From assembly GCA_021161835.1 (NCBI GenBank), contig JAGGZV010000042.1:1-35346 (forward strand): a stretch of 35,346 bases of DNA, in the 5' to 3' direction. The notes beneath the pieces were generated by a model that searched no databases, was not told the DNA's origin, and saw only the letters and a list, made by a program, of their open reading frames with translations. This DNA comes from Thermotogae bacterium. GTDB taxonomy: Bacteria > Thermotogota > Thermotogae > UBA12178. Positions 30,185 through 35,346 of this stretch are shown here, in pieces. The position numbers were made by a program, and so were the translations under genes. How positions within the stretch are numbered: the first letter of the stretch is position 1; every line of letters starts with the position of its first letter.

Positions 30185-30206
30185 TAAAAAAGCCCCTTGA
30201 GGGGCT
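30185..30206 (-). terminator. Rho-independent terminator immediately 3' of tRNA-Thr
   Basis: Minus strand reads A GCCCC TCAA GGGGC T followed by a 6-T run: 6-bp stem, 4-nt loop, U-tract. Confidence 0.88.
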
Positions 30207-30281
30207 GGAGCCAGCGGAGGGACTCGAACCCTCAACCTACTCATTACGAATGAGCCGCTCTACCGATTGAGCTACGCTGGC
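30206..30281 (-). tRNA. tRNA-Thr (anticodon CGT), CCA encoded
   Basis: Minus strand GCCAGCGTAGCTCAATCGGTAGAGCGGCTCATTCGTAATGAGTAGGTTGAGGGTTCGAGTCCCTCCGCTGGCTCCA folds as a cloverleaf: 7-bp acceptor GCCAGCG/CGCTGGC, anticodon loop TTCGTAA, T-loop GGTTCGAGTCC. Confidence 0.95.
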
Positions 30282-30396: not shown

Positions 30397-30694
30397 AGAA
30401 ACTAGTGTATAATTTTTTTGGAATGGTGATTTGCATAGCTTTTCATCCGCCCTTCTTTTATTTATTTAAAATTTGGGGCTTGCGGCTCTGCTCTGTCTTA
30501 AAAAGTGTAGGGAGTTTTCATTTTTACAGCATTTATTTTGCACTGCCTACAATTGCTCTGTGGGGTTTTAACCACAAATCCACCTGCATATCTTGGAGTG
30601 TTCGTGTGTTAGAATTGAGTTGACTATTCTACATATATTAACGCAATGATGTTTAATTAAATGAATTATCACGTCAAAGGGGGAAGATTTACCA

Positions 30695-32208
30695 ATGAAA
30701 GACATAAATTTTGAAGACAAGCTATGGAAAGCTGCCGACAAGTTAAGAAAGAAGATCGAAGTTCATGAGTACAAATATGTAGTTCTTGGACTTATATTCT
30801 TACGCTATGTTTCCTACGCCTTTGAAGAGAAAAGAAAAGAGATTCGTAAAGGGATTAAAAACACTAAATACAGCAATTTGCTCTTTGAGGACATGGATGT
30901 GTACCTTGCAGATGGTGTTCTATACGTTCCGGAGGAAGCGCGGTGGGACTATATTAAAAAGCATGCGAACCAGTCAAACATAGGTGAGATAATTGACAAC
31001 GCAATAGAAGCCCTGGAAAGAGAACATCCCAAGCAGTTAAAAGATGTGATTCCAAAAATCTACGCCAAGGTAAACCTCAGCTCAGACGACTTAGCATACC
31101 TTATAAATGTCTTTTCCATGATAGATTTTGGCACTGATCACAAAAGTAAAGACATCTTCGGCCGCATTTATGAACATTTCCTTGGCAAATTCACAGAAGC
31201 GGAAGGCAAAAAAGGCGGAGAATTTTACACTCCCAGAAGTTTAACAAGGCTCATTGTTGAAGTACTCGATGTAAGAAGTGGCAGGATTTTTGACCCAGCA
31301 TGCGGTAGTGGTGGATTCTTTGTCTCTGCACTTGAAAAGCTTGAAAGGGAAGACATAGATAAAGCTCTGCTGAGCATTTATGGCCAAGAATCCAAAGAGT
31401 TCGTATGGAAAATAGCAAAGATGAACCTTGCCATAAGGGGCGCAGAAGGTGACATAAGAATAGGAGACTCCTATCATGAGGACAGATTCCCTGATTTGAG
31501 GGCTGAATACGTGGTTTCTAATCCTCCCTTCAATGATAGCGAGTGGGGCGCAGATAGGATTAAACCCAGTGATCCGAGGTTTAAATACGGAATCCCCCCA
31601 AACAGCAACGGCAATTACGCCTGGATTCAGCATTACATATATCATCTTGCTCCTAACGGCAAAGCAGGTTTTGTAATGGCAAATGGTGCCCTTTCAACAG
31701 GAGGGGTGGAAGGAAAAATCCGTGAAAAAATCATCAAAGATGATCTCGTCTACGGAATCGTTGCAACTCCTGCTAAGCTTTTTACGCAGTATCTCTCCCC
31801 GTATCGCTATGGTTCCTCAGAAAAAACAAACCAGATCACGTGAAGGGGAAGGTGCTATTCATCTACGCAAAAAACATTTACAAACCCATATCACGCCGTC
31901 AGGTTATATTCACAGAGGAGCATATAAACAAAATAGTAAAGAAATTCCGAAAATTTGAAGCTGGAGAAGATGAAGAAGAGATCAACGAGCTCGGATTTGC
32001 AAAAGTAGCCACGATCGAAGAAATCGAAAAGAACGGCTGGGTTCTAACTCCTGGCAGATATGTGGGAGTAAAGATAGAAGACGACGGAATTCCCTTTGAA
32101 GAAAAGATGAAGGAATACAGCAAGGAACTCTCAAAACTGTTTGAAGAAGAAAAGGAGCTAACGGAAAAGATAAAAGAGGTCTTCAAAGCTTTGGGATTCG
32201 AGGTGTGA
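30695..32208 (+). pseudogene. hsdM: Type I restriction-modification methyltransferase subunit HsdM, split by an apparent 1-nt frameshift (ORFs 30695-31843 and 31840-32208)
   Basis: 'FYTPRSLTRLIVEVLDVRSGRIFDPACGSGGFFVSALEKL' and 'VVSNPPFNDSEWG'; the conserved 'SLPVSLWFLRKNKPDHVKGKVLFIYAKNIYKPISRRQVIF' continues in the other frame from about 31792. Confidence 0.88.
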
Positions 32209-32211
32209 GGT

Positions 32212-33561
32212 GTGGAAACGCAGAACATAGAATACAAGAAAAAATTTGGAGAAAGAGCTCTTAGAGAGATATGTGGAATGGCGAATTCTCAGGGAGGAGT
32301 CGTTTACATTGGGATATCCAATGATGGAGAGGTTGTTGGAGTTGATGTAGACAGCGAAAAGCTTAGGGAAATTGCAGAGAAAATAGACCAAAACCTTGGA
32401 ATACACCCGGAAATAGAAGTCGAAGAGCGAGAAGGTAAAAACATAATAGCTATAAAGGTAAAAAAGTCGAATATTCCCATTTCATACAAGGGGATATATT
32501 ATGAAAGAGTTGGGAACACCACCAGAGAAATGTCTCCTGAAAAATTGAAAGACTTTCTCCTTAGAGGTGTTAACTGGGACAGCCTTATTTGCGAGAATGC
32601 CACGTTCTCTGATATAGATTCAAATACTGTTAGATATTTCATCGCCCGCGCAAGAAAAACGGGACGGCTCTTGTATTTCGACGAAGATTCAAAAATCGAG
32701 GACGTTTTCGAGCATCTCAAACTTTCAATAAACAGGCAGCTAACTAACGGAGCCATTTTGCTCTTTGGAAAAGACCCTCAAAAGTTCTTCATAAACGCAG
32801 TCTTAAGAGTCGTTCGTTTGAAAAGTCCCATAACAATTGTGGGTGATCGCCTTATAGATGGTAATCTTTTCTACCAAGCTGTTCATGGTGAAGAAGCTAT
32901 AAAACAATTCATAAATGTGCGGTACGAGATAAAAGAACTTCAAAGAGAAGAAATCTGGGATTATCCACTTGAGGCTATAAGAGAAACACTTATAAACGCT
33001 CTTATTCACCGTGATTACTTTAAAAGCAATGTTCAAACCCAGATCAAGATGTTCGATGACTATATATGGTTCTACAATCCAGGTGGTCTTCCGGAGGGAA
33101 TCACAATTGAACAGCTCTACGGGCCCCATCCATCTGTACCAAGAAACCCCCTCTTAGTTCATATCTTTTACCTCGCTGGATTCATAGAGGAGGTTGGATC
33201 GGGAATTCAGAGAATAATCAACGCTATGAAACGCTTCAATCTTCCTCAGCCCCAGTTCAAAGAAGAAATGGGAGGGTTTTCGGTATATTTTAGAAAAGAC
33301 ATTTACACAGAAGAGTACCTTAAAGGTTTGGGCTTGAATGAAAGACAGATAAAGGCTGTGCTGTATGTGAAGGAAAAAGGAAAGATCACGAATAGAGAAT
33401 ACAGGAATCTCTTTGGAATTTCCGATAGAACATCTCTCAGTGATCTTAACAAGCTATGCGATATCGGGATTTTGATGAGGAAGGGGACAACAGGAAGGTC
33501 GACAGAATATATACTTGCTCCATATCCCAAACCCGAAGAACCCGAAACAAACCCGAAGTAA
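32212..33561 (+). CDS. AlbA_2/Schlafen-type putative DNA-binding protein with HATPase_c_4-like region and C-terminal winged helix
   Basis: 'IEYKKKFGERALREICGMANSQGGVVYIGISNDGEVVGV' (AlbA_2), 'EAIRETLINALIHRDYF...IWFYNPGGLPEGITIEQLYGPHPSVPRNPLLVHIFYLAGFIEEVGSGIQRI' (RecG-like/HATPase_c_4), wHTH 'ITNREYRNLFGISDRTSLSDLNKLCDIGIL'. Confidence 0.9.
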   Translation: METQNIEYKKKFGERALREICGMANSQGGVVYIGISNDGEVVGVDVDSEKLREIAEKIDQNLGIHPEIEVEEREGKNIIAIKVKKSNIPISYKGIYYERVGNTTREMSPEKLKDFLLRGVNWDSLICENATFSDIDSNTVRYFIARARKTGRLLYFDEDSKIEDVFEHLKLSINRQLTNGAILLFGKDPQKFFINAVLRVVRLKSPITIVGDRLIDGNLFYQAVHGEEAIKQFINVRYEIKELQREEIWDYPLEAIRETLINALIHRDYFKSNVQTQIKMFDDYIWFYNPGGLPEGITIEQLYGPHPSVPRNPLLVHIFYLAGFIEEVGSGIQRIINAMKRFNLPQPQFKEEMGGFSVYFRKDIYTEEYLKGLGLNERQIKAVLYVKEKGKITNREYRNLFGISDRTSLSDLNKLCDIGILMRKGTTGRSTEYILAPYPKPEEPETNPK

Positions 33562-33568: not shown

Positions 33569-33643
33569 ATTAGAGGACGATTTATTGGGGGGTGAGCCTA
33601 TTGCCCTTAAAATTCAAGGTAGTATAAGATAAATGCTGTAAGA

Positions 33644-33870
33644 ATGGAAAATCTGTACCTTCTAAAGATAAGTTATGCTCAAATCCAATCCAAGAGGATT
33701 CAATCAGGCGCCATGCCATACGAAAAGATAAGCACTGGAAAAACACCCAGGAACGGTTACAAGAGAAACGTGCGCAAAGAACCAAAAGCAAAGATGATAG
33801 GTGCGTTTCCAAGCGGTAAATACCTGCGTGTCATGTGCCAGATTTTTATAGACAGCAGGCCTATCCCTCG
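33644..33870 (+). pseudogene. Possible degraded IS256/Mutator-type transposase remnant
   Basis: 'MPYEKISTGKTPRNGYKRNVRKE' resembles the IS256 N-terminal 'GYEK....RNGY.r.tvrt' pattern; 'FPSGKYLRVMCQIFID' is reminiscent of the C-terminal region; heavily truncated. Confidence 0.4.
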
Positions 33871-34925
33871 ATTGACAGGAGAACTTCTTCAAAGATCCTC
33901 ACGGCTCCGCCGATGAAGGGAGCTTCTCCTTCTGATGAACTCTTTTCTATCGTCACATCGTGTTCACGGCAGGTCTCCCACACTCTTTTCTCTATCTCGA
34001 GCATATCGTTCAATCCCAGCAATTTGCTGTACGGACCGCCCAGAACGACATGTTTGATCCCGATGAGAGCGACTATGTTCGCTACTGCCGCCGTCAGGAG
34101 GTTCACAAGATGCGCCTTACCTTCTTTTTTCCCCGCTTCAACTGCACGCAGGATTCTTTCGTATTCTTCTTCAAAGCAGAAGAGCCCATAGTCGCTCTCG
34201 GTTCCCACCGTGTAAACCATCCTGCCTATCCTCGTGGTACCATATTCATTCATCCCATGGATGTGACCGTTGAGCATCAGAACACCGTTGAGGGTCTTTC
34301 CAAGATACAGATAGAAATAGTTCCAGGGAATATGCCGCGACTTCAACCACTCACCCATGGCGTACACTTTGACACCGTTCACGATGATGACTTTGGTTTG
34401 CAACCGTTTTTCCAGCAGTTCTCCCAACTTCGTACCATGGAAGGTCAAAAGGGTGTCCAAATCCGTTTCCTTAAGACATCCTGAAACACGCGGGAGTACA
34501 ACCGATATCCCCACCAACCTTCCTTTTCTCTCGTTTAACTCAAATTTTTCGAAATCCTTCAGGATTGATTCGACGATATCGGAAATCTGTCTCAATTCTT
34601 TTTGCTCTCTCTTTGCGACTATCTTCAGGGATGCATCGACCAGCGCGGTAGAAACCGAATGTGCATTCACATTAACAACGAGAGCGTGAGCCACCTCCGG
34701 GTCTATATGGAGCAGGTTTCGCGGGCGTCCACCATGAACTCTCTTCTGTCCTGACCTGATGACCAATCCACTTTCCATCAGACGTTTCAGAAGTTGTGAA
34801 ATGGTGGGAGAACCGGTTTCCAGTCTGCGTGCTATCTCGGATACGGAAGTCGGTTGATTGCGCCAGAGATCACACATTACCATCCAGAGATGCAAGCGCC
34901 GCCAGCTCCACGGACTTTTGATCAT
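33861..34925 (-). CDS. ROK-family transcriptional regulator (NagC/XylR-like)
   Basis: N-terminal HTH 'QPTSVSEIARRLETGSPTISQLLKRLMESGLVIRSGQKRVHGGRPRNLLHI', ROK-like sugar-kinase fold; AAGGAGG RBS supports ATG 34925 rather than 34958. Confidence 0.88.
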   Translation of the reverse strand: MIKSPWSWRRLHLWMVMCDLWRNQPTSVSEIARRLETGSPTISQLLKRLMESGLVIRSGQKRVHGGRPRNLLHIDPEVAHALVVNVNAHSVSTALVDASLKIVAKREQKELRQISDIVESILKDFEKFELNERKGRLVGISVVLPRVSGCLKETDLDTLLTFHGTKLGELLEKRLQTKVIIVNGVKVYAMGEWLKSRHIPWNYFYLYLGKTLNGVLMLNGHIHGMNEYGTTRIGRMVYTVGTESDYGLFCFEEEYERILRAVEAGKKEGKAHLVNLLTAAVANIVALIGIKHVVLGGPYSKLLGLNDMLEIEKRVWETCREHDVTIEKSSSEGEAPFIGGAVRIFEEVLLSIEG

Positions 34926-34929
34926 CTCT

Positions 34930-35346
34930 TCATCCTCCTTGAGATAGATATTCATCATCCTGCGTTACCTTACTCTGTGACTTCATCCATGTTTTCCACC
35001 ACGATGTCCAGGATGTCATCGAGTTAAAGAGATGTATTTTCATGCTCGATAGCATTTTGGCATTATCTTCGTACAGCTTGCGTACCTCTGTTTTAGAACT
35101 TTCGAGTGCTCCGACTACCTCAGGATCGTAGAGGGTCCCAGCATGAGCGATTATTTCATTCAGAGCTTCATCGAATGTCCGTGCTTTCCTGTATGGCCGA
35201 TCGTTCGTCATGGCATCGAGACTATCGGCAACGGCCACTATTCTGCTTTCCCAGGGTATCTCCGTACCCTTGAATCCCTGGGGATAACCTGTTCCATTCC
35301 ATCTCTCGTGGTGGGTGAGAGCGATACGGGCTGCCACGTTCAATAT
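34930..35346 (-). CDS. HD-GYP domain protein, C-terminal portion, runs off the window edge; 3' end probably frameshifted
   Basis: 'LTHHERWNGTGYPQGFKGTEIPWESRIVAVADSLDAMTNDRPYRKA' is the HD-GYP signature. Confidence 0.88.
   Translation of the reverse strand: MLNVAARIALTHHERWNGTGYPQGFKGTEIPWESRIVAVADSLDAMTNDRPYRKARTFDEALNEIIAHAGTLYDPEVVGALESSKTEVRKLYEDNAKMLSSMKIHLFNSMTSWTSWWKTWMKSQSKVTQDDEYLSQGG

Follow-up and report, generated by a model that had tools for sequence, protein, structure and literature searches.

Gene content of the locus

The window analysed here is a 35,346-nt stretch of DNA, contig C81 of the draft genome G000, an assembly of 105 contigs that is 85.8% complete. The source, a heat-loving bacterium, is inferred to fall in the Thermotoga class, since the genomes of its class that turned up in the searches include named Thermotogaceae. 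It holds an hsdM gene of the type I RM kind, split over two reading frames, and behind it an intact gene with a SLFN_AlbA_2, a HATPase_c_4 and a wHTH part, which we call the AlbA_2 gene. The features are listed below.

30206-30281, minus strand: tRNA-Thr (CGT), found by ARAGORN; the island lies on the 5' side of the tRNA
30400-30554, minus strand: 5'-end remnant of a probable IS256-type element (terminal repeat and transposase start), reading away from hsdM
30695-31843, plus strand: hsdM, first part (ORF1), 382 codons; HsdM_N 2.1e-25 and N6_Mtase 1.8e-78 (Pfam)
31778-31783, plus strand: short T-run, site of the hsdM frameshift, from ORF frames and alignment with locus L028
31840-32208, plus strand: hsdM, C-terminal part in another frame (ORF2), 122 codons; N6_Mtase positions 238-309, 2e-13
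32212-33561, plus strand: intact SLFN_AlbA_2 - HATPase_c_4 - wHTH gene, 449 aa; SLFN_AlbA_2 1.1e-18 and HATPase_c_4 6e-25 (Pfam)
33602-33617, plus strand: possible hsdS-start stub of 5 codons, weak, ending at the terminal repeat; from position and likeness to the stubs of loci L028 and L178
33611-33860, plus strand: second probable IS256-type remnant (terminal repeat, N- and C-terminal transposase scraps, internal deletion)
33861-34958, minus strand: ROK-family regulator, host gene at the island border; MarR-HTH and ROK (Pfam)

The ORFs agree with the first-pass annotation, in which hsdM is followed at a distance of 3 nt by a 449-aa AlbA_2 gene; the latter opens with a GTG start 3 nt past the hsdM stop. 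ORFs and Pfam also confirmed that neither hsdS nor hsdR adjoins the pair and that the next gene is the opposite-strand ROK regulator, an orthologue of which (54%) is present in the same-family genome G002.

The hsdM frame is broken once, and hsdS and hsdR are missing from the assembly

The closest intact hsdM is that of L028 (84/80%), a locus itself at a contig end. Residues 1-363 of the window hsdM ORF1 are the part alignable to the 508-aa L028 HsdM, matching its residues 3-367 with 84% identity, and the last ~19 of the 382 codons are out of frame. ORF2 aligns with L028 residues 387-508, 97 of 122 positions being identical (80%). Since the two ORFs map to successive parts of L028 HsdM, the window hsdM carries a single frameshift. 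The first-pass annotation left this break out of its reasoning, although its proposed test spoke of repairing the frame. The motifs DPACGSGGF and NPPF are both kept in ORF1, and the two ORFs overlap by 4 nt (GTGA, 31840-31843). The locus has the domains of the HsdM family, in a broken frame, and not an intact HsdM. The frameshift amounts to one base in a homopolymer of a draft assembly and could be an assembly error. At locus L069 (2732-4296), hsdM also forms two ORFs, split at a different position, though hsdS and hsdR follow; this may be a lesion or an assembly error.

We also looked for the missing subunits in the rest of the genome, a check that the first-pass annotation had proposed. Methylase_S was found nowhere else in the 85.8%-complete assembly, while the same search was positive in 9 of 14 control genomes. 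HSDR_N and the type I SWI2_SNF2 domain were likewise found nowhere else in this assembly (searches positive in 9-10 of the 14 control genomes). The 105-contig draft, in which the window hsdM is the only strong HsdM-type N6_Mtase, lacks both the HsdS and the HsdR subunit; the genes could lie on a contig missing from it.

The AlbA_2 protein combines a Schlafen-type domain, an ATPase and a predicted wHTH

The proposed AlbA_2/HATPase_c_4/wHTH architecture was supported by Pfam for its first two parts. No Pfam match was obtained for a wHTH in the window protein; this part is seen in the predicted structure, where residues 377-435 form a unit of three helices and a beta-hairpin, and a tandem paralogue at locus L049 scores for HTH families. 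Overall, the protein has the architecture of a Schlafen RNase, a GHKL ATPase and a wHTH, the last by model only. The AlphaFold prediction, based on a 42-sequence alignment, reached a pLDDT of 88.6. Its Foldseek matches were headed by 3LMM, which covered most of the protein (1e-25); N-domains of Schlafens came next, and ATPase domains of histidine kinases after them.

The catalytic residues of SLFN13 are E205, E210 and D248 (PMC5862951). By profile alignment to 5YD0, with residues mapped by manual counting, they fall on E2, E7 and N37 of the window protein. Nearly all of the 42 sequences keep the residues of the E2 and E7 columns. Column 37 is Asp in 38 of the 42; the window protein has N37 there, with D38 as its neighbour. 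Judged from the alignment, Asn at the third catalytic-acid column possibly weakens the predicted RNase activity. Of 58 near-invariant columns the protein departs from only 2, which is usual among its relatives, so apart from this Asn there is no sign of general decay. The same genome has a second Schlafen-ATPase-wHTH paralogue at a contig edge (G000:C52:308-1705, L139); it shows 46% identity, and its third catalytic-acid column holds Lys.

The segment is an insertion beside tRNA-Thr flanked by remnants of probable IS256-type elements

In the two same-family genomes G001 and G002, the order ftsH-tilS-tRNA-Thr is kept and no hsd or AlbA_2 gene is present there. The absence of the island beside a syntenic tRNA-Thr in both genomes indicates that the window segment is an accessory insertion. 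A full operon at this very site in related strains, which the first-pass annotation had named as a sign of simple decay, was not seen, as these two genomes have no hsd genes at all at the site.

An imperfect 48-nt inverted repeat, 77% complementary, flanks hsdM and the AlbA_2 gene (30507-30554 and 33611-33658). The scraps with matches elsewhere lie outward of its two arms. The left remnant aligns over ~170 nt with a remnant on another contig of the genome (G000:C38, L150), and the left flank is 94% identical over 33 nt to a remnant in genome G037. The right remnant matches the one on G000:C38 with 85% over 48 nt; its peptide scraps match other remnants and, weakly, an IS256 transposase in C89. 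The remnant peptides resemble the start and the end of IS256-type transposases, and Pfam assigned no family to the downstream scrap (33644-33916). From these short remnant-to-remnant and peptide matches, both flanking scraps are probably IS256-type remnants. On G000:C38, the IS256-like 5'-end remnant and a nucleotidyltransferase/HEPN-like pair adjoin a DUF234/ATPase_2 gene, a homologue of the gene upstream of the L028 hsdM.

The right remnant starts about where the start of hsdS is expected. Short HsdS-like stubs of the form M(L/V)RF..TEFK.T, tentatively read by eye, follow the AlbA_2 gene in L028 and L178. We rejected the stub at 33602 as direct proof of hsdS truncation and retain it as a weak hint, since 70 of 500 shuffles and 67 of 500 random window pieces aligned with the L028 DNA at least as well. 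A degenerate pattern for an HsdS-like N-terminus (FKWGTEFK) was tried on 103 relatives as a route to a complete hsdS; the single genome that matched was that of L028, and no complete hsdS was identified in this way.

Relatives carry the full operon and several states of its decay

AlbA_2 loci from the genome collection and relatives were compared, the search of flanks being bounded by contig ends (L028 corresponds to genome G094 and L031 to G102, both named Thermotogaceae). An hsdM gene lies immediately before the AlbA_2 gene in ~10 of 80 loci, and the spacing of a few nt between hsdM stop and AlbA_2 start recurs in the window, L028 (3 nt, as in the window), L030, L034, L041 and L144. The gene order hsdM-AlbA_2-(...)-hsdS-hsdR is present in L027, L041, L049 and L069, with hsdS and hsdR confirmed by Pfam for L049 and L069, and genome G085 has a complete hsdM-AlbA_2-hsdS-hsdR operon. 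AlbA_2/Schlafen genes do occur as accessories of type I RM loci, as the first-pass annotation had held. A full operon with an hsdM of ~84% identity was not seen among these loci.

Intermediate states were found as well. G015, a congener of G085 with the same flanking genes at the corresponding site, has hsdM cut to 195 aa, no hsdS or hsdR and an intact AlbA_2 gene; a 1327-aa DUF4011/AAA_11/AAA_12/MTES_1575 helicase-nuclease ORF occupies the former place of hsdS and hsdR. The pair (L137 in G015, L179 in G085) looks as if one defence system had taken the place of another while the Schlafen gene between the flanks was kept. In G102 (L178:9410-9595), hsdM is reduced to an in-frame stub of 61 codons, the first ~50 joined to the last ~11, which directly precedes an intact AlbA_2 gene with the junction kept and no hsdS or hsdR behind it. 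With the window, these make three examples of an AlbA_2 gene outlasting a damaged hsdM. G042 has the AlbA_2 gene (67%) and no hsd gene nearby. In all, 66 of 87 tabulated loci showed no recognisable hsd neighbour in the flanks available.

The opposite outcome occurs too. In L028, hsdM is kept and the AlbA_2 gene is frameshifted, and broken AlbA_2 genes are also present in L025 and G037. With the AlbA_2 gene broken at these loci and intact beside a damaged hsdM at others, decay runs both ways. In two near-identical loci, L142 and L019 (G006 and G030), an hsdS-like ORF that appears truncated (121 aa) immediately follows a more distant AlbA_2 gene.

The locus is best explained as a decayed type I RM operon

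Taken together, the window segment is very probably what decay has left of a type I RM operon, hsdM-AlbA_2-hsdS-hsdR, that was gained by horizontal transfer and inserted beside tRNA-Thr; the surviving genes are its left part. The first-pass annotation had suggested erosion of a type I RM locus in which AlbA_2 was an accessory gene, and the intact operons elsewhere, the G085/G015 pair and the IS256-like remnants on both sides bear it out. An element would have landed in hsdS or close to it, at about its start, and hsdS and hsdR would later have been deleted together with most of that element. Going by family membership, HsdM, HsdS and HsdR of the intact loci would methylate and restrict, and the AlbA_2 protein would most likely act as a second-line (abortive) RNase effector, its ATPase/wHTH part gating the activity in response to a challenge to the RM complex. 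HsdM depends on HsdS to recognise its target, so the window locus is expected neither to methylate nor to restrict. For the window AlbA_2 gene there are two options: a leftover, or a gene that stands alone.

The second of these outcomes is compatible with decay of the operon, and we put it at somewhat below an even chance. Here the AlbA_2 gene would be a free-standing functional defence or stress gene kept by selection, and hsdM upstream debris that provides translational coupling. The frame is open over all 449 codons, although an open frame is no proof of selection if decay is recent. The near-invariant columns are as well kept as in the relatives, although Asn at the catalytic-acid column may lower activity. 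The gene stands intact beside a gutted hsdM in G102 and G015 and without hsdM in G042, but its breakage in L028, L025 and G037 shows that it is not always kept. The many AlbA_2 loci without hsd genes point the same way as the survivals, with the reservation that their count is limited by contig ends, and such Schlafen fusions are widespread effectors (PMC12839542).

It is unlikely that hsdM is functional, with a frameshift that is either an assembly error or bridged by ribosomal slippage or translational coupling at GTGA, and with HsdS supplied in trans. A lesion of one base in a T-run of a draft assembly, the 4-nt overlap of the ORFs and the intact catalytic motifs are in its favour. Against this, no HsdS domain was found in the draft genome, no other gene in the ORF list of the 35-kb window is obviously split, and hsdM is broken in related loci also. 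For the RM part to be alive, the frameshift would have to be an artefact and HsdS would have to be encoded in an unsequenced part of the genome, a combination to which we give little credence.

The suggestion that hsdM and the AlbA_2 gene form a true two-gene defence or regulatory module working without HsdS and HsdR is very improbable and was largely refuted: the few-nt adjacency does recur, but the window hsdM is frameshifted, the apparent pairs L028, L030 and L034 lie at contig ends, and wherever contigs allowed judgement either hsdS and hsdR are present (L027, L041, L049, L069, G085) or hsdM is truncated (G015, G102), so that no pair with an intact hsdM and without hsdS/hsdR was found on any contig long enough to judge.

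Implications

The question raised by the first-pass annotation is answered in favour of decay and not of a new two-gene system. Neither eroded RM loci nor Schlafen-type accessory genes are new as such, and the window locus adds an example. We regard it as mildly interesting in that a Schlafen gene can outlast its operon; mainly, the locus documents the break-up of RM loci. The loci can be lined up in a small series that runs from a full operon through a truncated hsdM and an hsdM stub to AlbA_2 on its own. Such a series could show whether the Schlafen accessory genes of RM systems persist after the loss of restriction and whether they act autonomously. As a rather doubtful generalization, the Schlafen-ATPase-wHTH gene might be an effector that moves about and swaps partners, outliving its RM operon time and again (window, G015, G102) and then working alone or with a new partner, such as the helicase-nuclease ORF that occupies the hsdS/hsdR place in G015.

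Comparison with known systems

A literature search for AlbA_2 together with type I RM, by Pfam name, returned nothing. The best solved structural match across both domains is DIP2311 of Corynebacterium diphtheriae (PDB 3LMM; Foldseek 1e-25), an uncharacterised protein with 16% identity to the window AlbA_2 protein. The N-domain of mammalian SLFN13 (PDB 5YD0) shares the AlbA_2 core, with E205 and E210 equivalent to E2 and E7 of the window protein. It differs in having D248 where the window protein has N37, and two AlbA_2 lobes per chain instead of one; the SLFN13 N-domain has no GHKL ATPase.

Fusions of a Schlafen RNase, a minimal histidine kinase and a wHTH are described as widespread, serving BREX and BREX-related systems as accessory effectors (PMC12839542). 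These effectors have the same SLFN_AlbA_2 - HATPase_c_4 - wHTH order as the window gene and a similar association with methylation-based defence. The window gene is instead tied to a type I RM remnant, its third catalytic acid is Asn, and its activity is predicted. G102 has a second AlbA_2 copy; in the region L180:4033-14612 it is flanked by an SNF2/NOV_C helicase on one side and a DUF1156 methylase on the other, and this helicase-AlbA_2-DUF1156 layout matches that of BREX-related (BR) systems (PMC12839542).

From a type I RM operon the window differs in its frameshifted hsdM and missing hsdS and hsdR; it is alike in the HsdM_N and N6_Mtase domains, in the motifs DPACGSGGF and NPPF and in operon position, and its relatives carry hsdS and hsdR after the AlbA_2 gene.
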